From positions 1 through 34,036 of the IMG/VR virus record IMGVR_UViG_3300035145_002906: DNA of 34,036 bases; one strand, written 5' to 3'. Made by a program: the position numbers and the translations under genes. The first letter of the stretch is position 1. Each line of letters starts with the position of its first letter. Below the pieces are notes generated by a model. It made no database searches and was not told the DNA's origin. It saw only the letters and a program-made list of their open reading frames with translations. Positions 9,992 to 31,607 of this stretch are shown here, one piece after another. This DNA is from a virus.

Positions 9992-11563
9992 TCAGAATTC
10001 TACGACTAGTTTTACGTCTTCAATCTGATCAATTGAACGAGAAACTGTTCTTCTGTTTTCAACATAAATGATATCTCCAGTATACTTCTTGATCTCAGAT
10101 CCAGCGTAACCGTTGGTAAATGTCAAGTTAGAAGTAGTCAAACTATAACCTGTTTCTGGAGTCTCAACTGACCCAGAAACTGCACCCGTGATTGCATTAC
10201 CGCCTGAGAAAGCAGGAAGATCTCCTTTCTGATCACCAGTAGTAATATGCTCATAAGAACTCTGATAAACTTTCAGAATCTTAGTGCTAGAATCCCACGA
10301 AACAACTTTACCTTTGGCGTTTGTAGTTGCTTGGGTAACTTCTTCATCAATATTAAATGATGCAACAGTTGCCGAAGGAAACTTAATCGCTACAAGAGCA
10401 TTGTATGTAGAACTTGTCGCAACACCACCACCTGTTTGCTCTGGATCACGAATAATACCAATTCTTCTGAAGTCTGTGTCAACAGGGAACTCAAGGTTCT
10501 CATCATACTGAACTCTGGAGTTGACCATAACACGCTTGGTTCCGAGTTCCTTATTGATGTTGTATCCATGTCCACCAGAAGGAGGAATGATTACTTCTAA
10601 AACCGCACTGGTTCCAGGAGCACCAATACCAGAGATTTCAGTAGCATTTACGTTAATGTAACCGTAGGTATATCCAGATCCAGGAGTTGTAACTGTTACC
10701 TCTGTGACTGCACCGCTACTAACTTTAAGAGTTGCAAATGCCTGTGTTCCACCATTCTTCTGCCAGTCACCGCGAATGGGTACATTAGTATATCCAGTGA
10801 CAGCATTGTCTGTATATCCTGTGCCACCAACCTTAATAACTACTGTATCAATGGCACCATCTACAGCAGCTGCTTTAACATCAACACCATTAGTAGGATC
10901 GCCAGCAGTACCGACACCCCAAGCAGCAGGAACAGGAATATAAGAAGTAGTGAAGAATTTAATTACATCGTCTGTACCGATGCTATAAAGGAACTTCCAC
11001 TTATATCCATCAGCGGTACTAAAGATAGTTGTTCCCGTACCAGTGGGAGCAACTGTAGAAGCAGTTCCGTTGGGATTAGCAGGAGATGAACCGTTGTAGA
11101 TACACTTATAAACTTTATAGTCATTGACAATATAATACCTACCACCATAGAGATGGGGAGCATTTTCACCAGCAGAATTTGCTTTATAGTCTGCACTATA
11201 GTTTGAACGATACATGGAGTATGTGACTCCAGATGTCCAGTTGTATCTTTTGACGACCAATCTTACATCAGATGATTGAATTCTCTTAAGAGAAATCATG
11301 TCATCAAAGATCTCCTTTTCGTAATTAAAACTATCAATTGGAGTTGGAGGATTGTTTTCGTTCGGAGCAGCGAGATAAGAACCGCTGTGCTGACTACCTG
11401 CAGGTTGACCAATATATGAGAGAGCGCCAGGTACAGCAGTGGTGCCCCAGTTTTGTGGTCTACCCATGAAAAAGTACATGTTGGTGGCAGCGGCTTCAGA
11501 AAACGCTTCTTCAAACTGCTGTGCATTATGAATCCTAAATTGTTCAGAAATTAAAGCTGGCAT
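9992..11563 (-). CDS. 8: Baseplate wedge protein gp8, enlarged
   Basis: This is the T4 gp8-type wedge subunit. Recognisable landmarks in order are MYFFMGRPQNW (residues 29-39, T4 'FGR..pW'), RYNWTSGVTY (106-115), YKVYKCIYNG (149-158), DGYKWKFLYSI (185-195), YIPVP (208-212), FRRIGIIRDPEQ (365-376) and the C-terminal TGDIIYVENRR plus SIDQIEDVKLVVEF (495-523). All correspond to T4 gp8 features, including its end 'GEMIYMENR...mDQTEEINILF'. At 523 residues it is far longer than T4 gp8 (334). The extra length is two inserts: 'GGTGY/GSGY' beta repeats at 246-330 and an 'SGxxGxV'-like module at about 395-470, both also found in the adjacent giants. A TATAAATA late-promoter motif lies 32 bases before the ATG. 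gp8 pairs with gp7 in the wedge, which supports a gp7 role for the upstream giant. Confidence 0.9.
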   Translation of the reverse strand: MPALISEQFRIHNAQQFEEAFSEAAATNMYFFMGRPQNWGTTAVPGALSYIGQPAGSQHSGSYLAAPNENNPPTPIDSFNYEKEIFDDMISLKRIQSSDVRLVVKRYNWTSGVTYSMYRSNYSADYKANSAGENAPHLYGGRYYIVNDYKVYKCIYNGSSPANPNGTASTVAPTGTGTTIFSTADGYKWKFLYSIGTDDVIKFFTTSYIPVPAAWGVGTAGDPTNGVDVKAAAVDGAIDTVVIKVGGTGYTDNAVTGYTNVPIRGDWQKNGGTQAFATLKVSSGAVTEVTVTTPGSGYTYGYINVNATEISGIGAPGTSAVLEVIIPPSGGHGYNINKELGTKRVMVNSRVQYDENLEFPVDTDFRRIGIIRDPEQTGGGVATSSTYNALVAIKFPSATVASFNIDEEVTQATTNAKGKVVSWDSSTKILKVYQSSYEHITTGDQKGDLPAFSGGNAITGAVSGSVETPETGYSLTTSNLTFTNGYAGSEIKKYTGDIIYVENRRTVSRSIDQIEDVKLVVEF

Positions 11564-11606: not shown

Positions 11607-14600
11607 TCACCCTCGCCAAGCGAGTCTTAAATAATCGCCATCTGCGTGTGCAGACGCTGTTGTAGACTTGACACCTCTGACAACCGTAAAGTCTTGACCA
11701 GAGATTGATGTATATTCCATAGTTTCGTCACCAAATTCCAAATATCCTGCAGGTGGGAAGTTTGCTACATTACCAGTTACCGTAACGGTAGTGACAGCAT
11801 CATTAATAGCACCGTTCAGTGTTAGACCGTATGAAACATATGCATCAAGAGGGAGGTTAATAATAACACCACCAGCGGAACCGTATGCAACACCTGCGTG
11901 CGTAGTAAAGTCTCCAATCGTGATATTTGGAGCGTAACGAGTCATATGCTCAATGGTAACTCCAGTTCCAAGGTAATTTGCAAGAGGATCATTGAGTTGA
12001 ATAGGTTCAAACTGGAACTTAAGTTGATCAAACGTATTCAGGTTATATGCAAGTCCAGGTTCATTAGTTCTGTCTGCATTATGAAGTTGAGTTTGAACAT
12101 GAATAGTTCTTTCTGCACTGATCTGCGAAACAACCAGAGGGAGAATATCTTCAACTTCACTTTCATTGCTGACCCCAAGTCCAAGACCAGCATTGCCACC
12201 TATAGCAGTATAATCAATAATAATATCTTTTTTGGCGAATAGTGGTGTATGTGGTCTGATAATTTCATACTTTTTAGCAAAGATTATTTCAGGAGCAGCA
12301 TTATAACCAGAACCACCATCTGTGATTACAACATTAGTCACTTTACCATTAGTAATTTCAGCGTACCCCTTAGCACCAACTCCAGGATTGTCACATGTAG
12401 TCTTAAAGATAACCTCTGGAGCAACATCATATTCAAGACCAGCGTTAGTAATTTGAGCACCAGTCACTTGATATTCAAAGACAGTAGGAATACCATAAGT
12501 CCCAGAAACACCAACTGTATTTTCAATTCCAACAGTATTTCCACCAGAAACAGGAACTCCTGTAATTACTGCATTTGCAACAGCATTTTTACCGCGAATA
12601 TATGAGTTATCAGTATATACAAATGCTGTATAAAGTAGATTATCAGTATTTTCAAGTGCTTTATTATCAATTCTAATAATTTCCTTGGGGGTTTCGCCGT
12701 CAATTTTGATAAGGTCTCCAGGGAAGATAATATCACCAGTATTTGCAACTTTATTTTGATATCTGCAACCATCTGGACTATTATTGCCGATATATTCTAA
12801 GTCTTCAAATACATTACCGTTCCAAATAGAAATAGTTTTATCAAATGTCTTACCATAGAAATATAAACAATGACAATTCTTACCTGTTTGAGGTGCCTCA
12901 GCAAATGTCAATACGTTATCAACAATCGTGAATGCTTCACCTTCTCTCTGAGGAACTCCGTCAAGAAGCACCAAGATTTGATGAATATCTGGAGGAATAA
13001 TGTTATCGTCACCAAATTGAAGTTCAAAAGATTTTCTGTTATTATCAAGAAGGTGTGAGAAGTTATTTAAGATTTTATATTTACTGAACGTAAATCCAAA
13101 GAAGTGTCTATCTCTTGCAATTGGTTTAGTAAATACAATCTGGTTTGGATTTACTGATCTGTCAATTGTATAAGATTCGCCATAAAGTTGCATAACACCA
13201 TCAACAAATACCAACAGATTTTCATCTGGTTCGGTTACAACATTTGTCCCGTTTTTCTTGAGAAGGTCATATCTCGTAGATGTACCATCAAAAAGAATAT
13301 CCTTAATTTTATAAGAATATCTTGCATCATCAGCACTATCAACAAATTTAAAGAACTTGGAATAGAATGTAGTACCTTCTTTTGGTTTTTCATAGAATGT
13401 TATATCAGAATTACTATATGCATATTGACCTTCAGTAAGAAGGGCATTAGTAACATCACTAGAATCAAGAGTTCCTGATGTTGAAAGGAAGTCAGGTAGA
13501 ATAGTGAAGTCTTTGCTGTATAACTGGTTTGCAATAGCAAGTTTTGCCATGTCACGCGCTTTGTTAAATGCAGTAGTAGATTCTGCAAGTTCACCTGCAA
13601 TACCATTGGTAAGCAGAGAAGCTCCATTAATATAACGCTCTGTAGCATCAAGAATGTTAGAGTTACCACCAGATCTCATATCAGCGATAATTGCATCAAC
13701 AATAAGTCCGATGTCACGCTTACACTTACCTTCTCCAAAGGATGGTACACGCATAGACTCAATTGGAAGTGCTAATGGCGATACCAGAGATCCTTGATTG
13801 AGATATGTGGTTACAATACTGACAAGGTTATCAATGTTGCTTTGAACATCTGCACATGCTCCATTGCTATTGTTTGCAACAGGAGAATTAACAACAGGTC
13901 TTACGATTGCATCGGTCGCTGCTCTGACAAAAGTATGAGAATAGTCGCCACCAGAAATTACAGCATCGCTGAGAGCAGATACAAATGTATGCGTAGAAGT
14001 ATCAGTGGAACTACCAACATTAATTGTAATAGTAGTTGCAGTCTTCGTTACAATAGGAACTGCAGTATCGTAAGTCTTATCTTTTTTCTTCTTGAGACCA
14101 TTCTCTGTAGCACGGACAAATGTATGTGCTGATGTGTCAGAAGAAACACCAACCTTAACCTTGAAGGTGTCATAATACACATCGTAGATTGGAATCCACT
14201 TACCAGCATAAGGATCTTGTCCAGGACGTGGGTATGAGTGCTCACTTTGATTGCCATCTCTAGCACATGTGAATACTACAGAGTTGTCGTCAAATTTGAT
14301 GAAATCTCCATTCTCCCACCCATGATTCTCTACAGTAACTGTAAGAACACCATTTACAGGATCATAGTCAGCAGTCTCAATTGTTTCACTAAGAATAGTT
14401 GTCTTAGGATATGAATGCTGAGTCTGATGATTATCCAAAGAGCATGTGAAAGTTAAGCATTCATCTCTCAGTTTAATTGATGTTCCTGCACGCAGTGAAT
14501 GTGTGCCGATGTCCATCGTAACATCACCAGAAACAGGATCATAAGTTGCACTAGAAACCTGATGATTTACTCTTGGTGATGTACCAACGTTAATCTCAAA

Positions 14601-17600
14601 AGTATCTGTGGTTACGTTGGAAACTGCCAAAGATTGCTCATGATTTCCATCAGCAAGTCTTGGATAAGACTTCTCAGCAACGTTACCATCCATTGAACAT
14701 GTCATGGTGATACCATTAGATTTAATCACAACATCGTCGCCATTGCTGAGTCCATGATTAGCAATAGTAATTACAGAAATACCCGTGTTTGCGTCATAGG
14801 TGACGTTTGTTGGTGTACCAACAGCGGATCCCCAATAGTTTGCATTGGCAGCAGTAATTGTAAGATCCTTTGCAAGCAACTGGTTGACAATTGCTTCCTT
14901 CATAAGATCTCTGACCTTATTGAATGCTGTGATAGACTCAAGAATTTCACCGTCAAGACCATTAGTGGTGAATGATGTTCCAGCAGCGTTGAAGTATTGC
15001 TTGAGGAACTTACGGGCATAAACATTACCACCAGTGTGAACATCTAATGCCATGGCGTCAACAAAAAGTCCAAGATCACGCTTGCACTTCGCTTCGCCAG
15101 TTCTATCAGATCCGATAGTCTCAGTAGGAAGACCAGCAGTAGATCCTGCAGCAATAGCAGCAGTAACAATACCTGTAAGAGTTGTGATCGCAGAGGTTAC
15201 GTTTGCACAAGATGCAGCATGAGTATTAGATCCAGTAGCAGGATCAGGAGTGATTGTAGTATCAGTAACTGTCAGTTGGTTGGTAAATGCCAGGATCATG
15301 TTGTCCTTAGCAGCATTGAAAGCATCATTTGATGCTAATTCTTCACCGACCAATCCATTGGTAAGAGGATTGCCTTGATCATCAAAATACTGAAGAGCAA
15401 ACTTGCGAGCATACTCATTACCGCCGTTGACAAGATCCAATGATGTATAATCAATGAACAATCCGATGTCACGCTTACACTTAGTCTCTACCGCAGGATC
15501 AGCAGTATTTGATCCTGCTTGCATGGTAGTCCAAGCATTATCAATAATTTCCTGTCTGTTCTGTTGGATGAGTCTATAAGCGTCCTTAAAGCGATAATCA
15601 CTAGCGGTGGTAGGATCGCCAGGATAAACAAAATCAGGATGCTCTACGGCAATGTGGGCGGCACCTCTGTCAATCAATTCCTTGCGGTTGGTCATGATCA
15701 GACGATATGCATCTCTGTATCTGCTATATCCATTAGTTTGAGGATCATTAGGATAATAAAAATCGGGATGCTGCAGAGAAATTTCAGCATTTGCTCTATC
15801 AATAATCTCAAACTTATTGGCACTGATTAAGTTAGCACCATCCCTATGTCTGTTTGCACTAACTGGTCCTTTAGTAGGATCGGTCCAGATACCTTCATTT
15901 ACAATAGGTCTTGTTGCAGATGGATTTGCAGTATAATATGTTAGAATTGTTGTTAAATTATCAATCGTTGATTGAACATCAGCACAAACTGCTGGATCAT
16001 TATTAGTCAGAGTTCCATTTGGATTATTAATAGTTGCTCTGAAAGTATTAGATGATGGTACATCATAAATTTCAAATTTATCATTAAAATTGACATTTGC
16101 AACAGAATTTGCTACGCCAGAAATATGAACATACTTTTGATCTGGATATGTAGACCCAGTAACTGTTACTGCAAATCCATGATCACCATCAGTAGTGACT
16201 GTCATCATCCCAGCATCATAAGAGATACCTGTGATGTCCATCGTTTGATAAGGTTCCTGGAAAATCTCATTCAGAGCAAGAAGTACAGATGTATTTGATG
16301 TATCTGTTGGAAAGTTTCCATCATTAGTAGATAACGTAAATGTTGCTCTTGCTCCATCAAAACTACCAGAAAGATCTGCCATCTTTGTAGCTTCAATCTG
16401 ATTATCTAAGAAATTAAGTCTAGCAGCACCAGATCCACCATATGCTTTGATATTGACCGTGTTTATCGTTGATAATTCATACTTTTTAAATACAATATCA
16501 GATTCTACATTGATGTCTGGAAGTTGAATAATAACTTCATTTGCTGTTGGATCTTCACCAAGACCAATACTAAAGGGTAAACCTGTTACTGTATCATCAA
16601 AGTCTACATCATTTTCAATAGCAACTTCACCGAATAATTTGAATCCGAGTGGATGAGTAGTTTCGTCAACATATTGCTTATAATCACTCAGACCTTTAGT
16701 ACTCCTGATAACATAAGAGAAATCTTGGAAATAATTACTATCAGTGATTTTCTGAGAAGATGAGCTAATCTTGCCTAAATCAGAATCAAAGAATCCAACC
16801 TTAGCAATGAATGCCTTAACCACACCAACAATATCAGGATTGGTTACATAAGTTACTGTAGATGTTCTTTGATTAATTTGACCAGTTAAAACATCGTTTG
16901 CTTTCAATTCTCCTGCAACAACTGAAAGATTAAGTAAATAAATTCCAGTACTAATCAGAGAAATTTCATCAACTTTTGCCTCAAAACCACCAGAAGTAGT
17001 CACCACTTCTGCCAACTTATATCCGTCGTCAACAAGACCCTTAACAATAACTTTTTTATTGAATAATAAACTCTTACTTAAAGTACGATCTGGTGTGAAT
17101 TGACTTCCACTATTATTGAAACGAACTGTTCTAATTTTTCCAATATTTTCACCCTCTGCATAAATTTTTGCATTGGTATCTACAGCTAAGATAGTGTCAG
17201 AGCTAGAATATCCAGTACCAGGAGCATCTATTGTAATAGATGTAATTTTTTCATTGACAATTGTTGGTGTTAACTTAGCACCAGAACCAGTCTGACTATT
17301 GACAAATAATTTGGTGTGTGATGAATATCTAGATCCACCATTCACTACTTTAACATTAGAAATTGCTCCACCAACTAAAGTAATTTCAGTTCTCAAGTCA
17401 TCTAGCAAACTATGTGTAATACCTTCAATCTTTGGAAGTTTCTTATAACCTTCGCCACCATCAATTGTAGAGACGCTAGAAATTTCACCAATAGCAGTCT
17501 TAGATGTAGTTTTATATGAAATTAAGTTCAACCACTCAGGAACCTCTGGTTGGAATGGTGCAGTAAACTTAAATTTAGTAGGATTTACTACATTTACTGT

Positions 17601-20600
17601 CTGCGTGCCTGCGGGAAGTAAAAGTACACTAAAAAACTTATTGTTGTTTAAAACAGTTCTCGCTTCATCATAATAATAAACTCTTGATACATCAAAATTC
17701 AATAATGCTGCTTTTTCAATAGTTGCAGTAGCACCAGGAGTACCTGGAGTACCAATGTAAGACACATTTGATAATGTGTTTACATTAGCAGAATCTTCTG
17801 AGAAAACAAGGTTATGATTTAAGTTTGTGCCGTCACTTAAATCAAATACATACTTTGTTCCTCTAATGAGTCTAAACTGGAAATCTCTTACATAATAATT
17901 TCCTGTTCCCGTTGGATCAATTTCCCAATATACACTCTTTCCAGAAACACTAGAAATAATTATTTGCCTTCCAGTTGAAGTTGAATTATCAAGGATAGTA
18001 GTTCCACTGGATATTGTTCCTGAAGTAACTCTTACATCAATTGTTGATTTTTCTTTATTGATAGCATAAATCACACCAGCAATACCAGCAGCAGAAACAG
18101 ATCCACCAACAGTCAATCTATAATCAGGAGCATCATCTGGAATGTGCAATGATACAGTGTTTGTTGATGCATGTAATCTGAGTGGAGTATTAAATTGATT
18201 CCTATCAACTGTAAGTTGACCAGTGCTAGTATCAATTGCAGTAATTTTTAAAATCTCATCATTAATTTTAATATAATCGTTTAATCTAAAGTTTGCGGCA
18301 TCAGGAGTATCAATATTGATTACACTGGCATTAAAAGCTACATCAGCGACCAGAGTTGTAGTTACTGATGGTTTAGTATAAGTAATTGTCTGATAATCAG
18401 ACACTCTTACGTTAAATGTTTTCGTAATAGAAACTGCTTGTACATCCAGTGTTAATGTTACTTGATCTTCATTAGAAAGATTGTGAGGTTCGGAAGTTTC
18501 AACAGTAACATCATATGTTGTGTTTGCATACTGAGGAGCACTTACATTAATTGGCCATGGTGCTGTTGGAATACCATTCGTAACAGGAACAGATTGTCCA
18601 GGAACACCATGAATTGCAGCAACCTTTGAGCAAGATGTGTTAGATCCATCAGCCGAACAAGTTTGATCAAATTGAATAGGACCAGGAGCGTTTGCAACAA
18701 CACCAGCAATACCCGTTTCTAAGGTATTCATCTTAGAAACAAGTTTACCACCCTGAGAGTGACCGAACAGGTAAACATCATCAATAGTTTTAGAACCGCC
18801 CTGAGCTGTGATATAAGCATTCAAGGAGTTCTTAACCCAACCAACTGCTGCTCTAGCATAAGGTAGGTTATCTCCCATAAGGAAGTCTGACTGCTGTTCG
18901 CCAACCCCAGGTAAATTATACTGTAATGTATTAGAAATATGATCCTGAGGATATGCGACAGAGAAGACAATCTTGTCTCTTACATTAACACCACTTGAAT
19001 TAATAAATTGTGTTAGTGAGGTTTCTGATGCATCTTGGATAGTTGTAACACCATCATCAGTGACCGTTCCGTGGAATACAACTACAACATCAATAGAACT
19101 TGCTGCCAACCCTGTAGGAACATACAATTTACCCATAACTGGATATGATGTACCATCAATGGTGTGAGTTTCACCATCAGCAGGAACAATAGTATACTGT
19201 TCATTTGTAATAGTACCAGCTGGATTAGTTGATCCTACAGCAGATCTAATTGCTGCCTGAAGTGTTTGGTCTATTGTGAATGCTGCATGAGAAAGACTTC
19301 TATTATCTGGTCCAGGAATAGTTGTGACGGATACTGTGGCATTAGCACTAATTGCTTTAACAGAATTAATATAATCTCGCAACCAAGATGCTTGGTTGGA
19401 AGCACCCGTTGGGTCGTTCAATGCCTGCGTAAACAGAATTGGTGCATTGTGTGTGCTGGTCCAACTCTCAAGACCAATTTCATAATATTTGGACGATCCT
19501 TCACTACTATTGGGATCAGCAGCAACTTTATAAGAGACTCTTGGTACACTCTTTCCCTTTACTTCAGAAACTCTTCCGAAAGCTCTAGATCCTTCAGTAT
19601 CATCATTATTGATATACAGATAATCAGTATTTTTGAATGTATTTCCAGATTCTACTACTGTAAATTTATCAATACTGCCTCTTGCAACATCTCCTACTAC
19701 CAAGGATGCATCAAATCCTCTAGTAGGAGTATTTGATGTTCTAATTCTTCTTGCAATTAGAGGAATATTGTTGTCATTCTTCTGATCAAACTCAAGATTA
19801 AAATTATTTTTTGCAGGAACAGAATAAAAACTTCTTCCTAAGATATAAGGATATACTCCTGCTCCGTTACTATCAACGGTCAAGAAGTAGCAATATCTAC
19901 CTTCTGGATATTCGGGTGTTTTACAGAAACGACCATTACTGAAATCTAATGAACCAGAACCCTGAGTAAATTGATAGTCTTCAACAAATGCACCCAAAGG
20001 ATATTTTGTTGTACTAGGTCTAGTAGCATCTGCAGTTGTTTTCAGAATATACGATGATGTCTGCCTTACAACTCCACTGGTAGCATCTACAGGATTACTA
20101 TATCCATATGGTCCATAAATTGGGTTACCATCATATGCCCATCCAAGAATAGGTGAGTGTGTAAACCCTGAAGGTTTCTCAGCATAATTTGTATTAACAC
20201 CAAGAACATTATCTTGAAGATCATGCCTCAAGATTCTAGGATTTGAAGGATAACCATATTGAAGACCATATGCAGCATTTCTACTAGGATACAAATATCC
20301 ATTACCAGTATCAGATCTAACTACTGGCGCAGCTGCAAAATTACCATTAGCAGCAGGAGCATTCTTTGTTTTAAATACTCTATCAAATGCCCATTTCTTT
20401 ACATTTGCTCTAGCAAATACACCTGTTCCTTTAGATACAATTCTTACTCTAATTTGACTTCTATCTGTATAATCTGTACCGCCATTCAAAACAGTAATTC
20501 CAGTAACTTGATTATTAGTTACTTCAGCAATGGCGAATGCTCCCTTACCTCTTCCAGAGAGATCAGTAATCTCTACGCTAGGAGTTGCAACGTAATCCTG

Positions 20601-22511
20601 ACCAGCATTTCCGACAGTAATAGTTTTAATTTCACCATTCACTAAATGAGCATCTTGAGCAATTGATGCTGTAGCATCAAAACCATAAGTTACTTCAAGA
20701 TCATGATCTGTAGTATAGTTTTGACCACCGTTAACAACAGAAATTGAAGTTACTCTGCCATCAACTACTTTAGCACTGAACGTTGCTCCATTGCCAGTTG
20801 GATTTGCTATCCTAAACAATGGTTGAATATCTTCTTCAAATCCAATACCATTCTCTAAAATACTAACATTTTCAATTCCACCAAAAGAAATTTCTTCATA
20901 GTCTTGTGGACTAAACGCTTCAACACCATTAATAAACAATCCCACAGGAAGATTGCCTGTGAATTCTTCTCTGGTACTTTTTTCCGATTCTAATGGAATT
21001 GATTTTAAAATATGCTGATTTCTGATATCAAATCCAACGCCACCGAAAGCACCGATTGGATGTCTAGGTAAACCAGCACTAGTTACATAAGCATAATTAT
21101 TATCTTTAAATACCGAGAATGTTTCGGTGGGAATGTTCTCAACAGCAGCATTAACTTGAATATCAGAACTGGAAGATAATCTCCCTACTTCATTTAATTG
21201 CCAACTAGTAAATTGTACTCTGGAGTCGGTTGCACCGTCAGCAGAAAGTTTAATTTTTTCCCCATCTTCAAAATAATTTGAACCATCTTTAATATCTACT
21301 TCTGAGAGTAGTCCAAGCACTCTCATTCTAATTTTATCACTCTCTTCTCCCCTTCCAGGAGGATATCCAAAAATAAATTCTGTCGTTCTTACATCAGCAT
21401 TTGTGGAATGTACTGTAGCATTAGTGCCATAAGTACCCCTACCACAATCAATAAATTGATTGATAGTTTTTGTTCTATATGTGATAACTTCACCATCAAT
21501 TTCAATAATGCCATTTACTGCAGGAAAACTAAGTGTGCTATCAACAGTAACTACTGTGTCTGTAGCAGAAATATTCCTTCTCAGTATGGTTGTATTTGGA
21601 ATTGAAAATGGTTGAGACTCAAGAACGTTTAATCTGAGCTCATAAATGTTTTTGGATCCAGAAGCATAATTAGAAATATTATTGACAAGTAAATCATCAA
21701 TAATTGCCTGAGTTTGAATTACTCCTGTGGCATCTGTTTGTCTAATCTGGGCACCAATTAAGTCATAAGGATTTCCCTGGATTTCTTCTACCTTAATAAT
21801 ATCATCAACAGTCCAGTCAGAGTAAGAAGATTTAATAACTCTATCTTTTGGATAGCGAATAGTAACTTCTTCATCAAATAGTGCCCTGAAAAGAAACTGA
21901 ACTGAAAGATCTGTTCCTTTATAACTATAAAAATCTTTGATATTTCTAATCAGTGTATCTTTACCAATCTGATCAGAAATATTCTCGTGTGGGAATCCAG
22001 CAAGATACTGTTCCTCATAGTTCTTCAATATGAAGAAGAGAATCAAGTTTGAATAATTTAATACAGCAGCACCTGTAGCATGACTTTGAGCATTGCTGGT
22101 TCTGACTGTAGTTTTTTGATTATCAAATTTCGTGGTCGCAGTAAATCCTCTCTTACACCCAGTAAGAGTTCGTGTAGAAATATTTACGGTCTCATATTGA
22201 ATAATCTCACTACCAATTCCAATAATGCCACCATCGGTAGAAAGACCATCAATCTTATCCACTACAATAGAAGTAGCAGATTCATCAATAGCAGTTTGTA
22301 AAATATAACGTCTAACTAAGTTAAATTTTTGGAGATTATCAACATTTTTATACTCTAAGAAATTATTCTGGATATCTAAAATGCCACCAGAAACTTCTAA
22401 TGACTTATAATACTCTTCAAAGAATTTTACAAAAGTAGGAAACTCTTCAGCAACAAAAGATGGTAACTGCTGATCAACTAAATCTGATATTGTTAACTTA
22501 TTAAAATTCAT
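11607..22511 (-). CDS. Giant gp7-like baseplate wedge protein with YHYH and hydrolase-like domains, 3634 aa
   Basis: The gene lies between gp6 and gp8, where T4 has gene 7 (1032 residues), so a baseplate-wedge role is inferred from synteny. The N-terminus (LTISDLVDQQLPSFVAEEF, then helices to about residue 70) probably anchors it. Visible modules: four 'RG' units with centres near residues 119, 356, 1437 and 3612; 'GGxxY' beta repeats near 575-690, 1685-1770 and 3350-3405; a YHYH-family domain at about 785-900 (WAYDGNPIYGPYGY, LDFSNGRFCKTPEYPEGRYC); an alpha/beta-hydrolase-like segment at about 1107-1310 (GHSQGG, Ser1252); three helical repeats at 2176-3007 with 'CKRD(I/L)GL'; three 'TCxxD' units at about 2590-2780; and a C-terminal beta domain. 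gp6 ends one base before its ATG, so translation is probably coupled. It fills 32 percent of the window. Enzymatic activity is uncertain. Confidence 0.8.
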   Translation of the reverse strand: MNFNKLTISDLVDQQLPSFVAEEFPTFVKFFEEYYKSLEVSGGILDIQNNFLEYKNVDNLQKFNLVRRYILQTAIDESATSIVVDKIDGLSTDGGIIGIGSEIIQYETVNISTRTLTGCKRGFTATTKFDNQKTTVRTSNAQSHATGAAVLNYSNLILFFILKNYEEQYLAGFPHENISDQIGKDTLIRNIKDFYSYKGTDLSVQFLFRALFDEEVTIRYPKDRVIKSSYSDWTVDDIIKVEEIQGNPYDLIGAQIRQTDATGVIQTQAIIDDLLVNNISNYASGSKNIYELRLNVLESQPFSIPNTTILRRNISATDTVVTVDSTLSFPAVNGIIEIDGEVITYRTKTINQFIDCGRGTYGTNATVHSTNADVRTTEFIFGYPPGRGEESDKIRMRVLGLLSEVDIKDGSNYFEDGEKIKLSADGATDSRVQFTSWQLNEVGRLSSSSDIQVNAAVENIPTETFSVFKDNNYAYVTSAGLPRHPIGAFGGVGFDIRNQHILKSIPLESEKSTREEFTGNLPVGLFINGVEAFSPQDYEEISFGGIENVSILENGIGFEEDIQPLFRIANPTGNGATFSAKVVDGRVTSISVVNGGQNYTTDHDLEVTYGFDATASIAQDAHLVNGEIKTITVGNAGQDYVATPSVEITDLSGRGKGAFAIAEVTNNQVTGITVLNGGTDYTDRSQIRVRIVSKGTGVFARANVKKWAFDRVFKTKNAPAANGNFAAAPVVRSDTGNGYLYPSRNAAYGLQYGYPSNPRILRHDLQDNVLGVNTNYAEKPSGFTHSPILGWAYDGNPIYGPYGYSNPVDATSGVVRQTSSYILKTTADATRPSTTKYPLGAFVEDYQFTQGSGSLDFSNGRFCKTPEYPEGRYCYFLTVDSNGAGVYPYILGRSFYSVPAKNNFNLEFDQKNDNNIPLIARRIRTSNTPTRGFDASLVVGDVARGSIDKFTVVESGNTFKNTDYLYINNDDTEGSRAFGRVSEVKGKSVPRVSYKVAADPNSSEGSSKYYEIGLESWTSTHNAPILFTQALNDPTGASNQASWLRDYINSVKAISANATVSVTTIPGPDNRSLSHAAFTIDQTLQAAIRSAVGSTNPAGTITNEQYTIVPADGETHTIDGTSYPVMGKLYVPTGLAASSIDVVVVFHGTVTDDGVTTIQDASETSLTQFINSSGVNVRDKIVFSVAYPQDHISNTLQYNLPGVGEQQSDFLMGDNLPYARAAVGWVKNSLNAYITAQGGSKTIDDVYLFGHSQGGKLVSKMNTLETGIAGVVANAPGPIQFDQTCSADGSNTSCSKVAAIHGVPGQSVPVTNGIPTAPWPINVSAPQYANTTYDVTVETSEPHNLSNEDQVTLTLDVQAVSITKTFNVRVSDYQTITYTKPSVTTTLVADVAFNASVINIDTPDAANFRLNDYIKINDEILKITAIDTSTGQLTVDRNQFNTPLRLHASTNTVSLHIPDDAPDYRLTVGGSVSAAGIAGVIYAINKEKSTIDVRVTSGTISSGTTILDNSTSTGRQIIISSVSGKSVYWEIDPTGTGNYYVRDFQFRLIRGTKYVFDLSDGTNLNHNLVFSEDSANVNTLSNVSYIGTPGTPGATATIEKAALLNFDVSRVYYYDEARTVLNNNKFFSVLLLPAGTQTVNVVNPTKFKFTAPFQPEVPEWLNLISYKTTSKTAIGEISSVSTIDGGEGYKKLPKIEGITHSLLDDLRTEITLVGGAISNVKVVNGGSRYSSHTKLFVNSQTGSGAKLTPTIVNEKITSITIDAPGTGYSSSDTILAVDTNAKIYAEGENIGKIRTVRFNNSGSQFTPDRTLSKSLLFNKKVIVKGLVDDGYKLAEVVTTSGGFEAKVDEISLISTGIYLLNLSVVAGELKANDVLTGQINQRTSTVTYVTNPDIVGVVKAFIAKVGFFDSDLGKISSSSQKITDSNYFQDFSYVIRSTKGLSDYKQYVDETTHPLGFKLFGEVAIENDVDFDDTVTGLPFSIGLGEDPTANEVIIQLPDINVESDIVFKKYELSTINTVNIKAYGGSGAARLNFLDNQIEATKMADLSGSFDGARATFTLSTNDGNFPTDTSNTSVLLALNEIFQEPYQTMDITGISYDAGMMTVTTDGDHGFAVTVTGSTYPDQKYVHISGVANSVANVNFNDKFEIYDVPSSNTFRATINNPNGTLTNNDPAVCADVQSTIDNLTTILTYYTANPSATRPIVNEGIWTDPTKGPVSANRHRDGANLISANKFEIIDRANAEISLQHPDFYYPNDPQTNGYSRYRDAYRLIMTNRKELIDRGAAHIAVEHPDFVYPGDPTTASDYRFKDAYRLIQQNRQEIIDNAWTTMQAGSNTADPAVETKCKRDIGLFIDYTSLDLVNGGNEYARKFALQYFDDQGNPLTNGLVGEELASNDAFNAAKDNMILAFTNQLTVTDTTITPDPATGSNTHAASCANVTSAITTLTGIVTAAIAAGSTAGLPTETIGSDRTGEAKCKRDLGLFVDAMALDVHTGGNVYARKFLKQYFNAAGTSFTTNGLDGEILESITAFNKVRDLMKEAIVNQLLAKDLTITAANANYWGSAVGTPTNVTYDANTGISVITIANHGLSNGDDVVIKSNGITMTCSMDGNVAEKSYPRLADGNHEQSLAVSNVTTDTFEINVGTSPRVNHQVSSATYDPVSGDVTMDIGTHSLRAGTSIKLRDECLTFTCSLDNHQTQHSYPKTTILSETIETADYDPVNGVLTVTVENHGWENGDFIKFDDNSVVFTCARDGNQSEHSYPRPGQDPYAGKWIPIYDVYYDTFKVKVGVSSDTSAHTFVRATENGLKKKKDKTYDTAVPIVTKTATTITINVGSSTDTSTHTFVSALSDAVISGGDYSHTFVRAATDAIVRPVVNSPVANNSNGACADVQSNIDNLVSIVTTYLNQGSLVSPLALPIESMRVPSFGEGKCKRDIGLIVDAIIADMRSGGNSNILDATERYINGASLLTNGIAGELAESTTAFNKARDMAKLAIANQLYSKDFTILPDFLSTSGTLDSSDVTNALLTEGQYAYSNSDITFYEKPKEGTTFYSKFFKFVDSADDARYSYKIKDILFDGTSTRYDLLKKNGTNVVTEPDENLLVFVDGVMQLYGESYTIDRSVNPNQIVFTKPIARDRHFFGFTFSKYKILNNFSHLLDNNRKSFELQFGDDNIIPPDIHQILVLLDGVPQREGEAFTIVDNVLTFAEAPQTGKNCHCLYFYGKTFDKTISIWNGNVFEDLEYIGNNSPDGCRYQNKVANTGDIIFPGDLIKIDGETPKEIIRIDNKALENTDNLLYTAFVYTDNSYIRGKNAVANAVITGVPVSGGNTVGIENTVGVSGTYGIPTVFEYQVTGAQITNAGLEYDVAPEVIFKTTCDNPGVGAKGYAEITNGKVTNVVITDGGSGYNAAPEIIFAKKYEIIRPHTPLFAKKDIIIDYTAIGGNAGLGLGVSNESEVEDILPLVVSQISAERTIHVQTQLHNADRTNEPGLAYNLNTFDQLKFQFEPIQLNDPLANYLGTGVTIEHMTRYAPNITIGDFTTHAGVAYGSAGGVIINLPLDAYVSYGLTLNGAINDAVTTVTVTGNVANFPPAGYLEFGDETMEYTSISGQDFTVVRGVKSTTASAHADGDYLRLAWRG
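13494..13856 (-). repeat. Helical 'CADV...CKRDIGL' repeat, copy 3
   Basis: This encodes residues 2886-3006 of the gp7-like protein. It starts CADVQSNIDNL, has CKRDIGLIVDA 44 residues later, then GGN, LLTNGIAGELAES, AFNKARD and ANQLYSKDFTI. The same landmarks in the same order occur in copies 1 and 2, with about 120 residues per unit. Part of the DNA is identical to copy 1 (22 bases at 13707-13728). Confidence 0.8.
14112..14834 (-). repeat. Three 'TCxxD...YPR' beta units in the gp7-like protein
   Basis: Residues about 2560-2800 hold three related units with cores MTCSMDGNVAEKSYPRL (Cys2605), FTCSLDNHQTQHSYPKT (Cys2690) and FTCARDGNQSEHSYPRP (Cys2749). Each is preceded by 'YDxxxGxxTxxxxxHGLxxGD' style sequence. 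The spacing is uneven (85 and 59 residues). They sit between helical repeats 2 and 3. Confidence 0.75.
14850..15209 (-). repeat. Helical 'CANV...CKRDLGL' repeat, copy 2
   Basis: This encodes residues 2435-2554 of the gp7-like protein. CANVTSAITTL is followed 41 residues later by CKRDLGLFVDA, then GGNVYARKFLKQYF, TNGLDGEILES, AFNKVRD and VNQLLAKDLTI. It has the same architecture as the other two copies and lies directly after copy 1. Confidence 0.8.
15246..15986 (-). repeat. Helical repeat, copy 1, interrupted by an 'HPDF' tandem insert
   Basis: This encodes residues 2176-2422 of the gp7-like protein. CADVQSTIDNL and CKRDIGLFIDY are 169 residues apart, instead of 41-44 in the other copies. 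The extra stretch holds helical units of about 43 residues: two full ones with 'HPDFxYPxDP' (His2248 and His2291) and 'RxxDAYRLIxxNRxEIIDxA', plus a preceding partial unit (ISANKFEIIDRANAEISLQ). The insert therefore expands an otherwise regular repeat. Confidence 0.8.
18582..19193 (-). other. Alpha/beta-hydrolase-like domain inside the gp7-like protein
   Basis: This segment covers residues about 1107-1310. It has the order expected of an esterase core: a beta strand ending IDVVVVFHGT (residues 1140-1149, with a His-Gly like an oxyanion-hole loop), KIVFSVAYPQ (1180-1189), and YLFGHSQGGKLVSKM (1247-1261), a textbook nucleophile elbow with Ser1252. Downstream comes KVAAIHGVPGQSVPV (1296-1310), which resembles the 'HGxxDxxVP' motif of PHB-depolymerase-like esterases except that the usual Asp position is Gly1305. 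No obvious final catalytic His follows before beta-structural sequence resumes. The fold call is fairly confident; activity is doubtful. Confidence 0.65.
19800..20165 (-). other. YHYH-type domain inside the gp7-like protein
   Basis: Residues about 783-904 contain HSPILGWAYDGNPIYGPYGY and, 50 residues on, LDFSNGRFCKTPEYPEGRYC then YFLT. These match the YHYH domain family pattern ('GYA.DGfPIYGPyGy', 'LDe.NGrf..TPEYP.GtYhY') as I remember it. The signature YHYH is here RYCYFL, so the second and fourth aromatic or His positions differ. YHYH domains occur in secreted bacterial proteins and in phage structural proteins; their function is unclear. Confidence 0.65.
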
Positions 22512-22512
22512 T

Positions 22513-24363
22513 TTACGCTACTTCTTGGAATACTTGGAAAGTACTATTTTCTAATGAGAGGTTCAAATATACCTCTCTAACTGCAAAGATATCGTCATTT
22601 TTTGGAGTTGCAGTAATGTAGATATTATTATCGGCATCACTTCCACTTGTAATTTGAATGGAATTTAAAGTTACATCACCTTTATCAAAATTGACGATTC
22701 CAGCATCATCAATTAAAATTTTCTTTTCGGCAGTAACTGGATCAATACTATATATTCTTATTGTTCCTGACTCATTATTCTCAAGATAAGCATCTTCATC
22801 AAACCCACTAATTCTAAATTTAGTGCTGGTAATAGTAGTTGTTCCATCACAGTATGATCTAAATGGATTTACATAACAAAGAAGATATTGTGCCTTGGTG
22901 TTAAGTGCTGGAACTAATTTTTTTCTTAAACGGAACACAGTATTATTACCAGTAATAGATTCCTGAGCAGAATCAATAACTGTAGTCACTTTACTCTTTC
23001 TAATAATACCACCAAACTTACTAAGGTTATTAGTTTCGTTATATTCATTAAGATTAGAAATAATTAAATTCCTGATTTGCTCAGGAATCAAATTTGTCTG
23101 TGTTTGGTTATAATAAACCTTAGCTCCCACTAAAACATCAACAATAGATGGATCTACGATAACTGGTGTTACGGATGCAACTGTAAATTTCCTTAATTTT
23201 GTTAAAATGTCATTTTTCGTAGAATTACTCAAAAGATCACTATATTTTGGTTTAATAGCAATCTTGACACGACCATATTCTGGTGGTTCTTCGGTTTCGC
23301 CACCATAAACAATAATATCAGCAATAGCAGAGTATAATCTCTGAGTAATAACCTTATAATCCTCTAATGTTACTGCTCTGTTCTGTGCAGAGTAGAATTT
23401 TGGCGCATTTGCCTTAATTAGTTCATCAGATTCAATATCATCACCACCACTGCTACTTGATTTTACAGTTACATTGATTCCATTTAAAATTCTGGAACTA
23501 TTTTCATCATAAATCTCTCCAGAGAAAACAAAATTCTGAATATTGTTACCATTCTGTCCAGATGATGTCAAATATGAAACTTCAATGACCTGACCATCCT
23601 CTAATTCCTTCCCTAAGACTCCATCACCAAAAATTAATTCGTATCTACTATCATCAATCTCTTGAACAAAGAAAATTGGATCATTTGCCGATACATCTAA
23701 GATATTTGATACTTTTTCAAATTTAGTCAGTGATGATGAGTTAGCATTCTCCCTAACATTGACTCTAATAGTCTCTGCATCAAGATTTGCTGTTGGGATA
23801 ACGAATTTTTGATTTGGAATTGTATCATCTACAACAAAATTGAAGGTTAAATAAACACCTTCAATAACTCTCAAATTATCACTTCCTTCTTGATTACTAA
23901 CTAGGCAAATATTATTTTCAATGGGACTTACAACATCTTCAAGCACTGAAAATTGATAAGTTTCACTTCTATTTTCTGGATTTGATGCAATAAAGCAATT
24001 TCCTTTCTTCAAAGTAAGAAATTTTGGCACCAATCTTTGGTCAACTGCAGCAACTGCCGTAAAATCAACCTTAAGTTCAACGTGTGCAGTGGATGAAGTC
24101 TTTGATTTAGCAGTATATCCTAGTTGTTTTGCAATTCTTACAATATTATCTCTTAATGAGGCAGAAGGCAAAAAACTTTCATTGACTGCCATCGTTGTGT
24201 TGAAGGCAGTATAATAAGTATTGTACGCCAAAAGATCAACCACTGCTGAGAGGGTTGATCCTTCAAAATCATAATCAGTAAAATCTGTATTACGCCTTAA
24301 GTATTCAACCAGAGCAGATCTGATATCAGCGTAATCTAGAGAACTAACTTGTGCGAATGCCAT
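22513..24363 (-). CDS. 6: Baseplate wedge protein gp6
   Basis: This is the T4 gp6-type wedge subunit of the baseplate J-like superfamily, 616 residues against 660 in T4 gp6. Landmarks are an N-terminal helical segment with FEGSTLSAVVDLLAYNTYY (33-51) and NESFLPSASLRDNIVRIAKQ (61-80), a central YELIFGDGVLGKEL (241-254), and AVTLEDYKVITQRL (330-343) followed by IVYGGE (351-356). These are the typical 'AVT..DY' and 'v.v.GGE' motifs of the J-like core. gp6 dimers form the inner ring that ties the baseplate wedges together. The ATG lies 3 bases after the gp25 stop, and the stop lies 1 base before the gp7-like ATG, so all three are probably translated from one late transcript. No truncation is seen. 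Confidence 0.93.
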   Translation of the reverse strand: MAFAQVSSLDYADIRSALVEYLRRNTDFTDYDFEGSTLSAVVDLLAYNTYYTAFNTTMAVNESFLPSASLRDNIVRIAKQLGYTAKSKTSSTAHVELKVDFTAVAAVDQRLVPKFLTLKKGNCFIASNPENRSETYQFSVLEDVVSPIENNICLVSNQEGSDNLRVIEGVYLTFNFVVDDTIPNQKFVIPTANLDAETIRVNVRENANSSSLTKFEKVSNILDVSANDPIFFVQEIDDSRYELIFGDGVLGKELEDGQVIEVSYLTSSGQNGNNIQNFVFSGEIYDENSSRILNGINVTVKSSSSGGDDIESDELIKANAPKFYSAQNRAVTLEDYKVITQRLYSAIADIIVYGGETEEPPEYGRVKIAIKPKYSDLLSNSTKNDILTKLRKFTVASVTPVIVDPSIVDVLVGAKVYYNQTQTNLIPEQIRNLIISNLNEYNETNNLSKFGGIIRKSKVTTVIDSAQESITGNNTVFRLRKKLVPALNTKAQYLLCYVNPFRSYCDGTTTITSTKFRISGFDEDAYLENNESGTIRIYSIDPVTAEKKILIDDAGIVNFDKGDVTLNSIQITSGSDADNNIYITATPKNDDIFAVREVYLNLSLENSTFQVFQEVA

Positions 24364-24804: not shown

Positions 24805-25407
24805 TTATTGCATGTGTATCTTTAAATTGAAGGCAAAGGAGATTCTAGATCTATCTGTAGTATTTGTACTCACTTTATGAAGTGTGTTTGCAGGAAACAA
24901 AACCATTTGACCTGGAATAGGATTAATTCTATAATTGCCACCAAAATTATATCTCATCAAAATTTCTGGACGAACATTTTCATGCCACATATATTGTGAA
25001 TATTGAAGATCATTTTGAAATTCTAGATTGCCTGATCCTGGTCTAATGTCAATCCATAGACAACCTGCAATATCCGAATATGGATGGCAATGCCACTCAT
25101 TCATACAATCTTTATTATTGACATTCAACCAACAATTTAAAAGTTCAATTTTAACATTATCTTTAAATATATCTCCTAACGCTCGGTTTGAGTGAGTCAA
25201 TGTAAACTCAGCATACCTTTTAAAATTATTTCTTTTATGAATATTTGACTCGGACTGCCAACCTCCCAAATTTGACTTCATTACACCATCAGTTTCTGAC
25301 ATTTCATGATAAGTATATTCCATAAAAGATTTTTTAATGGAATCAAACTCAGGTTTTGTATTGTGTCTAATGAGTAAAGTTGGAAAAATTGGTATAATGT
25401 CAGTCAT
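24805..25407 (-). CDS. Putative 2OG-Fe(II) oxygenase, 200 aa
   Basis: This is a likely iron- and 2-oxoglutarate-dependent dioxygenase of the phage-rich family Pfam calls 2OG-FeII_Oxy_5. Residues 92-117 have CWLNVNNKDCMNEWHCHPYSDIAGC, fitting the family pattern 'sWiN....n..H.Hp.s.lsG'. FPANTLHKVSTNTTDRSRISFAFN (171-194) gives the distal His177 and the Arg that binds 2-oxoglutarate (Arg186 or Arg188). His106 and His108 replace the more usual H-x-D as candidate metal ligands, with His177. The substrate is unknown; family members hydroxylate proteins or small molecules. It shares KSNLxG and the overall plan with the other oxygenase at 25997-26599, so the two look like distant paralogues. Its ATG lies within the last codons of a 44-residue gene (8-base overlap). 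Confidence 0.72.
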   Translation of the reverse strand: MTDIIPIFPTLLIRHNTKPEFDSIKKSFMEYTYHEMSETDGVMKSNLGGWQSESNIHKRNNFKRYAEFTLTHSNRALGDIFKDNVKIELLNCWLNVNNKDCMNEWHCHPYSDIAGCLWIDIRPGSGNLEFQNDLQYSQYMWHENVRPEILMRYNFGGNYRINPIPGQMVLFPANTLHKVSTNTTDRSRISFAFNLKIHMQ

Positions 25408-25534: not shown

Positions 25535-26000
25535 CGGTTCTTTGTGTAGTTTTTACAATTTCGTAGTCATCTCCAAGGATTTCTTGCATCATTGCATCGT
25601 TCCAATGTGCATAATATCCAGATTTTGCTAAAATTTCACGATGTTGACGCAATTTTACCTTTGATTGACACAACATTAAGTTGTACTTGCCATTATTTGT
25701 CTGAATTCCATTAAGAAAAGTGTGATAATTAGCGCAATCTTCCAAAAATATGAATTCTGGGTAGATTGTGTTGTAAATTTCACACCACATTTGGATAGCA
25801 TCAGCATCAAGATAGTCTTCAACGACAAAAATGACGACATCACACCCCTTAATAGGCATGATATCGTCAATCGGCGCTTCTATGACCTCATATGTTGCGG
25901 AGTTAGAGTAAGGACAGATTGCAAAATTACCTAATTCAGGACGAACTTCGGAAATTTTAGCAATCCATTCTTTAATATGCTCTTCAACTTGCGATTTCAT
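25506..26000 (-). CDS. Hypothetical protein between two oxygenases, 164 aa
   Basis: No family is recognised with confidence. The protein looks soluble and alpha/beta. It has an N-terminal helix (EEHIKEWIAKISEVRPEL), then FAICPYSNSATYEVI (residues 27-41), a strand CDVVIFVVEDYLD (54-66), a helical segment with MWCEIYNTIYPEF, and a C-terminal part with LRQHREILAKSGYYAHWND (118-136). The 'LG.faICPYs..a' start faintly recalls the 'lnLCPFAk' start of DUF1415-type proteins, but this is only a hint. The ATG overlaps the stop of the preceding oxygenase (ATGA), so the two are translationally coupled and may act together. Cys at 30, 54, 75, 89 and 111 and several His residues could bind a metal, although no fixed motif is seen. 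Confidence 0.7.
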   Translation of the reverse strand: MKSQVEEHIKEWIAKISEVRPELGNFAICPYSNSATYEVIEAPIDDIMPIKGCDVVIFVVEDYLDADAIQMWCEIYNTIYPEFIFLEDCANYHTFLNGIQTNNGKYNLMLCQSKVKLRQHREILAKSGYYAHWNDAMMQEILGDDYEIVKTTQRTDGKLTNRQK

Positions 26001-26599
26001 ATGATATTGCCAGAAACGGAAATTCTATCTTCATCACAATTATAGAATGGATATACTTGATGCCTGAGTTCTGACGGAAAAAGTAACATTATTCCCTCAG
26101 CTTCAGGGTTCATCTGATATGTGTAAGTCTGAATCTTACCAAGAGTGTTGGTATAAGAAAATTGAAATGAAGAGATTCTAGGATTTTTTGCGTTTAATGC
26201 GATTGGATTTTGGTTTTGTTCCAGGTGTCTTGTAGGAATTTTCATCCAAATAACAAAACTATAGATTCCGTTGTGATTATGTAACGGATTAAACTCAGTC
26301 TGCTTCTGATAATTCACCCAGAAATCAACTAAACCATGCTGAACACTACCTAGAGGTTTGAATTGGCATTCATATTCATAACACAGGGGTGAAAGTGTAT
26401 GTTCATAGAACCAATCAGACTGATCAACTAAAGTATTACTTTCGTGGATGTTTCCAGCAAGATTGCTTTTATAGGATTTTCCACGATCGTTAATACAATC
26501 CCACAAATAATCAACTTCATTTGTAGAAAGTTTTTTCTCTAACCATCCAATATTTGGGGGAGTGACTACTCGCACTCCCTCACTATCACTCTTCCTCAC
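25997..26599 (-). CDS. Putative 2OG-Fe(II) oxygenase, 200 aa, GTG start
   Basis: This is the second member of the 2OG-FeII_Oxy_5-like family in the cassette. FWVNYQKQTEFNPLHNHNGIY (residues 93-113) gives His107 and His109. Residues 172-198 (LLFPSELRHQVYPF, then DEDRISVSGN) give the distal His180 and Arg192, matching the family's 'lFPs.l.H.V.P......RisisgN' end. Catalysis would couple oxidation of 2-oxoglutarate to hydroxylation of an unknown substrate. The start codon is GTG at 26597-26599, 14 bases inside the end of the upstream 37-residue gene. No ATG lies near the N-terminus, and this start keeps a natural length of 200 residues, equal to its paralogue. The stop overlaps the next ATG. It lacks a strong Shine-Dalgarno, so coupling to upstream translation is likely. 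Confidence 0.72.
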   Translation of the reverse strand: MRKSDSEGVRVVTPPNIGWLEKKLSTNEVDYLWDCINDRGKSYKSNLAGNIHESNTLVDQSDWFYEHTLSPLCYEYECQFKPLGSVQHGLVDFWVNYQKQTEFNPLHNHNGIYSFVIWMKIPTRHLEQNQNPIALNAKNPRISSFQFSYTNTLGKIQTYTYQMNPEAEGIMLLFPSELRHQVYPFYNCDEDRISVSGNII

Positions 26600-31305: not shown

Positions 31306-31607
31306 ATCATGAAGACATTAGGCGATCCTACAATGATTGGAAATACTCCTGTAATACCTAGTGCTAAATCACCCAATGCTTCACCAGCAATTTTATTCAC
31401 AAATACCTTTGGTGATCCTGTAATTACAGGTGCAACGTGTGTTTTACAGCACTTAGGGCAAGGAACAATCTCTAGGTATGGTGCTGTGACATCTCCAAGT
31501 TTACTCTTGGCAATTTTATTTACAAACACATTAGGAGATCCCGTTGCTTGCACAGGAGTGTTGCAACGATTTAGATAAATGTGACCAATTGTACTTGCAG
31601 CTAACAT
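31302..31607 (-). CDS. PAAR-motif spike-tip protein (gp5.4-like)
   Basis: This is a PAAR-family protein that should fold into the small metal-stabilised cone capping the cell-puncturing spike, as T4 gp5.4 does. It has 101 residues (T4 gp5.4 has 97). Three repeats carry the family motif: TGSPNVFVNKIAKSKLGD (22-39), TGSPKVFVNKIAGEALGD (63-80) and VGSPNVFMI (93-101). Between repeats 1 and 2 lies CPKCCKTH (Cys50, Cys53, Cys54, His57), a likely metal-ligand cluster together with His9 or Cys15. An AAAGGT sequence precedes the ATG by 7 bases. The start shares one base with the previous stop (TAATG), and the end overlaps the adhesin start (ATGA), so the three neighbours are coupled. Confidence 0.88.
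   Translation of the reverse strand: MLAASTIGHIYLNRCNTPVQATGSPNVFVNKIAKSKLGDVTAPYLEIVPCPKCCKTHVAPVITGSPKVFVNKIAGEALGDLALGITGVFPIIVGSPNVFMI

Follow-up and report, generated by a model that had tools for sequence, protein, structure and literature searches.

Carrier protein and catalytic residues of the inserted domain

The window, the whole stretch of 34,036 nucleotides that was analysed (IMG/VR virus record IMGVR_UViG_3300035145_002906), derives from a marine cyanophage and contains an esterase-type domain inserted in a giant tail-baseplate protein. The carrier, P0001, is a 3634-aa ORF product (Table 1) that matches the baseplate wedge family phrog_2885 of PHROGs (E 9.8e-223) and also phrog_4406. 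Its gene is flanked by gp6-like (22513-24363) and gp8-like (9992-11563) genes, with a gp25-like baseplate gene also nearby, and the presence of these baseplate genes places P0001 in the gp7 position. Both its gp6-/gp8-like neighbours and its wedge family match are those of a T4 gp7-like baseplate wedge protein. The Pfam family PF23786 scored under its cut-off on P0001 (21 versus 27 bits). A YHYH domain (PF14240) is located upstream of the insert.

Two putative 2OG-Fe(II) oxygenase genes (PF13759) lie among the baseplate genes on the minus strand (24805-25407 and 25997-26599); 24 such genes were reported in phage S-SCSM1 (PMC9602691), which also carries the hydrolase domain. A Phycobilisome match below the Pfam threshold (E 7.6e-4) was detected at aa 2311-2378 of P0001 (window ~15378-15581, minus strand), and the segment concerned (CKRDIGLF...) is present about three times in the protein. 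The gene at 31302-31607 on the minus strand encodes a small protein that resembles the PAAR motif family (PF05488, E 8.5e-4, under the cut-off) and may be a tail-spike tip.

Table 1. Features of P0001 and of the inserted hydrolase domain
Feature	Position in window	Strand	Basis
Carrier P0001, gp7-like giant baseplate/virion protein	11607..22511	-	PHROGs phrog_2885 and phrog_4406; gp6-/gp8-like neighbours
YHYH domain (PF14240) of P0001	19866..20177	-	Pfam, E 1.2e-30
Inserted circularly permuted alpha/beta-hydrolase domain, aa ~1005-1305	18597..19499	-	Homologue conservation, AlphaFold, Foldseek, swapped-order BLASTP
Acid segment, aa 1005-1056: strand (APILFTQ), Asp loop, helix	19344..19499	-	Alignments, model, BLASTP
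Catalytic acid Asp1033 (ALND)	19413..19415	-	Invariant in 34 homologues; three residues past its strand in the model
His segment, aa 1057-1099: strand 8, His loop, terminal helix	19215..19343	-	Alignment, model, BLASTP
Catalytic His1075 (SHAAF)	19287..19289	-	Invariant in 34 homologues
Core segment, aa 1100-1302: linker fusing the old termini, strands 1-6, oxyanion HG, nucleophile elbow	18606..19214	-	Alignments, model
Oxyanion motif Phe1146-His1147-Gly1148-Thr1149	19065..19076	-	HGT invariant in 34 homologues
Catalytic nucleophile Ser1252 in GHSQGG	18756..18758	-	Invariant in 34 homologues; strand-elbow-helix in the model
Conserved Cys1285 and Cys1294	18630..18659	-	Invariant Cys columns
Unoccupied repeat copy of P0001, aa 2562-2686	14454..14828	-	Occupied L024 1902->2201 aligns with P0001 2612->2609

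The first-pass annotation had noticed an alpha/beta-hydrolase-like segment at 18582-19193, which corresponds exactly to aa 1107-1310, and the positions of its motifs were verified: VVVVFHG at aa 1142, GHSQGG at 1250 (Ser1252) and HGVPGQSVPV at 1301, with Gly1305. These motifs are real, but the start of the domain was set too far downstream; the segment conserved in homologues identified by tblastn in phages and IMG/VR spans aa ~1001-1305, and thus ~100 residues upstream of the earlier start belong to the domain. The first 100 residues of the domain include the sequence APILFTQALND, and the His of SHAAF follows 42 residues after the final Asp of that sequence. The acid segment corresponds to the canonical strand 7/helix E part, relocated to the N-terminus. 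In the window copy, five residues that are absent from the aligned relatives are inserted just before His1075.

In the alpha/beta-hydrolase superfamily, Ser is the nucleophile, His the base and Asp the acid, and the HGT motif lies near the oxyanion hole; roles were assigned to the present residues on this basis. An alignment of 34 sequences, in which identity falls to about 40% for some, contains 35 invariant columns; HGT, GHSQG, two Cys and both the Asp and the His are among them. The invariance of the Ser motif is partly a selection effect, as members were gathered partly via motifs near the Ser; the other segments were likewise located with Asp and His patterns, and there was no full-length member without these residues at the expected place.

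The earlier suggestion that the domain is perhaps inactive, lacking its acid and His, is therefore not supported: the Ser-Asp-His set is complete and shows no variation, and it is the circular permutation that divides it and places Asp1033 and His1075 N-terminal to the segment originally noted. That the domain is a relic that only binds, or that it employs Asp1282 or Asp1288 with His1301 as a stand-in set, would be consistent with the absence of a canonically placed acid/His pair from aa 1107-1310 alone. However, with the true acid and His lying upstream in the window protein and being invariant across the 34 homologues, with Tyr in place of His1301 in several homologues and with neither Asp1282 nor Asp1288 invariant, we regard this as very improbable. 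Asp1282 and Asp1288 were also rejected as the catalytic acid on the ground that they adjoin or fall inside the variable region that surrounds the conserved pair Cys1285 and Cys1294, which could form a disulfide.

Fold and chain order of the domain

The acid and His parts of alpha/beta-hydrolases normally come after the serine part. This canonical order (serine, acid, His) was found in the records L018, L019, L030 and L032. BLASTP aligned the window domain with L019 in two pieces whose order is reversed, one of 201 residues at 71% (E 2e-101) and the other of 91 residues at 58% (E 2e-28), and reversed two-piece matches were also obtained with L032, L018, L030, L055 and L076. The swap point differs in the comparison of the window with isolate S-SCSM1, and the family, which comprises about 46 records, therefore has three orders: type 0 (canonical), type I (acid-His-serine, the window) and type II (His-serine-acid, S-SCSM1). 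The window domain is a circularly permuted alpha/beta-hydrolase, whose acid/His part precedes the oxyanion HG/Ser part. Because its chain order is acid-His-Ser and not the Ser-acid-His order kept in relatives such as L019, we describe it as a permuted variant that is a sequence homologue of the canonical-order members, without counting it as canonical itself.

AlphaFold modelling of aa 1000-1310 of the window protein, with an alignment of 18 type I sequences as input, yielded a model with a mean pLDDT of 82 and a pTM of 0.87. The N-terminal part of the model consists of a strand (26-31), the Asp at 34, a helix, a strand (61-66), the His at 76 and a helix (83-93), followed by the remaining strands, in which FHG ends strand 140-147 and the Ser elbow lies around 253. 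Strand 7, Asp, helix, strand 8, His and helix are thus placed ahead of strands 1-6. The model has a central sheet with helices and a nucleophile elbow after strand 5, and the invariant Ser, acid and His are positioned at the elbow, after strand 7 and after strand 8, respectively, relative to the model strands. The first-pass proposal that a gp7-like baseplate protein harbours an alpha/beta-hydrolase domain whose nucleophile elbow is GHSQGG was thus borne out, with AlphaFold and Foldseek supporting the fold; GHSQGG does not lie in a loop of a beta-sandwich, and the domain is a discrete one, with empty counterparts at other insertion sites.

The difference in chain order was also apparent in the Foldseek searches. 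The model of the type 0 domain of L019 (pTM 0.79) yielded 908 full-length matches in the PDB at E<=1e-3, the top ones being mostly esterases, together with lipases (~310 columns, TM ~0.5). The window model, despite being the better model, yielded only 16 matches at this threshold (TM ~0.3), and the best TM among the matches listed (0.35-0.40) was that of the engineered circularly permuted HaloTags 8b6n and 8b6p. In BFVD, the S-SCSM1 protein was the only close match to the window model (TM 0.75). A YHYH-domain protein of Cyanophage S-RIM14 (A0A1D7SKQ1) showed a weak structural match (E 0.06), which may reflect a second, different hydrolase domain or chance.

Most records of the family are metagenome contigs, and the order could in principle be an assembly artefact, or the halves could come from different domains. 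However, the identical order is found in intact ORFs in many contigs and samples, an isolate genome is also permuted, and a single compact and confident model spans both halves. An origin other than true permutation is therefore hardly credible.

Profile searches did not assign the domain to an existing family. Its best domain scores against Abhydrolase_6, Abhydrolase_5 and Hydrolase_4 of Pfam were below the curated cut-offs, so that it is not filed there, and NCBIfam contained nothing specific for it. No significant match to PHB depolymerases or LpqC-like esterases was obtained, the best PDB profile match being 3d0k (E 0.042 over 21 residues only), and no cellular relatives were detected in two genome scans. 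Weak matches to a periplasmic-binding-protein family (PF13433; Rhizobium/Agrobacterium plasmids) were contradicted by the fold result, and this identity was rejected.

Insertion sites and history of the permuted forms

Judged from the sequences, the domain behaves as a roaming insert in surface loops of many unrelated tail, baseplate, fibre and nozzle proteins. Assignment of the carriers by PHROGs and Pfam identified gp7-like giants (the window, L001, L024 and L116), phrog_529 tail fibres with two sites (L008 with L018, L019 and L032; L010), phrog_4924 short tail fibres (L015), phrog_30655 proteins (L020 and L030), a collar fibre (L014), Ig-containing proteins (L017 and L076), subtilases (L025, L026 and L115), the podovirus nozzle PF25675 (L013) and the small tail-fibre ORF of S-SCSM1. 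In L026 and L115, the domain apparently lies between the pro-segment and the protease domain of the subtilase. All of the 20 records searched, including the complete genome of S-SCSM1 and a contig of 250 kb, contain one copy of the domain.

Five occupied sites have empty counterparts, namely in the S-T4 fibre (680->684), the S-RIP1 nozzle (282->281), the S-CAM3 fibre (246->258), the S-CAM4 protease-cupredoxin (641->638) and a repeat copy of P0001 itself, which corresponds to the occupied site of L024 (Table 1). For the site that the domain occupies in P0001, no empty homologue was found, and a flank query for uninserted homologues of the S-SCSM1 carrier retrieved only itself. Target-site duplications at the insert ends were not detected beyond chance, except for one glycine-codon run. 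The same loop is filled by type I in L008 and by type 0 in L018, L019 and L032, and the type I domain of L020 and the type 0 domain of L030 apparently occupy the same site of homologous proteins. It is plausible that permutation is tolerated since the two ends of the domain come together for loop insertion.

In a tree with a divergent type 0 clade as the outgroup, type 0 was basal and type II formed one clade; the canonical order is apparently ancestral. A single origin of the acid-His-Ser order was borderline rejected (AU p 0.039). This result is due to L029, without which a single type I clade was not rejected (p 0.42); the fused linker of L029 differs from that of other type I members. Type II shows the loop of type 0 (AIHGASTGDGSEPYKSIGLE) together with a fused linker resembling that of type I (GSTNPGGPI.NAQF), and this coexistence suggests that type II may have arisen via an overlapping tandem or circular intermediate, or by recombination between types 0 and I. 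Identities of individual segments are suggestive only and do not decide whether the S-SCSM1 form is a mosaic of the other two. We tentatively propose, as a possibility that we hold with some doubt, that the domain is a roaming virion enzyme domain of marine phages that was reopened into new orders more than once, and that phages generate permuted enzymes while moving them between tail proteins.

Predicted function and relation to known systems

We consider it probable that the window domain, as a member of a roaming permuted alpha/beta-hydrolase family, most likely serves as a serine esterase that is displayed on the virion and acts on the envelope of the host; its active-site geometry, activity, substrate and place in the virion are what we infer here. 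The elements of the domain form a ring that is opened at different loops, giving the canonical, the acid-His-Ser (window) or the His-Ser-acid order. Ser1252 would attack the ester carbonyl, His1075 (base) and Asp1033 (acid) would form the relay, and the HGT loop would assist the oxyanion hole. The predicted reaction is the hydrolysis, at contact, of an ester of the host envelope, such as an O-acyl substituent of LPS or capsule; the cleavage of a surface ester at contact, which the first-pass annotation had raised, is plausible. This substrate is a guess, given Pfam scores below the curated cut-offs, the lack of a specific NCBIfam family and the lack of a detected cellular relative.

The occurrence of the domain in varied tail parts, with one copy per record, is in keeping with display of the enzyme on the virion, its precise location there being of little importance. 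The carrier gene of S-SCSM1 is annotated as 'tail fiber protein (virion protein)'. The virion proteome of this phage comprises 45 proteins identified by mass spectrometry (PMC9602691), and about 48 genes are labelled as virion in its record, including non-structural ones named in that study. The two numbers do not agree exactly, and the label probably, although not certainly, records detection in particles. A virion location of the other carriers is inferred from the annotation of the carrier proteins only.

The weakness of the Pfam and NCBIfam matches would also be compatible with an intact fold that has a role other than cutting host surface esters, such as action on another substrate (lipid or amide), action after entry, or mainly binding. 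However, the oxyanion motif and the three catalytic residues are invariant in sequences as divergent as those aligned here, and esterases and lipases make up most of the nearest folds. We therefore consider such a role unlikely, although it deserves some weight, and favour the virion-displayed esterase.

Several known systems resemble the family in part. The 'tail fiber protein' of S-SCSM1, QFG06499 (SSCSM1_235), contains the same domain with the full Ser-Asp-His set (about 66% identity over aligned pieces), but it differs from the window in its opening point (His-core-acid) and in its small size (368 aa). TrLipB (7wol), feruloyl esterases (7xri and 3pf9) and HSL-like esterases share the fold and the catalytic layout with the canonical-order relatives, but their identity to the phage family is only ~10-16% among the matches listed; these canonical enzymes are not inserted in virion proteins, whereas the order of the window domain is permuted. 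HaloTags 8b6n and 8b6p are permuted like the window domain but engineered. The PHB depolymerase of Penicillium funiculosum is a natural circularly permuted alpha/beta-hydrolase; it is a single fungal enzyme, whereas the phage family shows three orders.

In the passages on permutation found in a 2024 survey of the superfamily, it is mentioned only for peripheral strands (PMC11878206). Enzymatic modules, including an SGNH hydrolase, are shuffled among the tail proteins that serve as phage receptor-binding proteins (PMC10684548), in a text in which the term 'circular permut-' does not occur. In contrast to that mosaicism, members of the present family are inserted within loops of nozzle, baseplate, fibre and protease proteins, and permutation occurs in addition. 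Thus, permuted alpha/beta-hydrolases and domain shuffling in phage tail proteins are already known, whereas searches of the open-licence literature retrieved no description of this hydrolase family, nor of any family with three permutations or of a comparable domain at the position of gp7. We are aware of no other enzyme domain for which three natural circular permutations exist in a single family, at so many insertion sites.

The family provides a natural series for studying the evolution of permutation and loop insertion, and it may explain how the envelope of the host is processed by some cyanophages. The case also illustrates an annotation trap, in that the catalytic residues of a permuted domain can be wrongly judged to be missing. 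The annotation of QFG06499 does not recognise the hydrolase.
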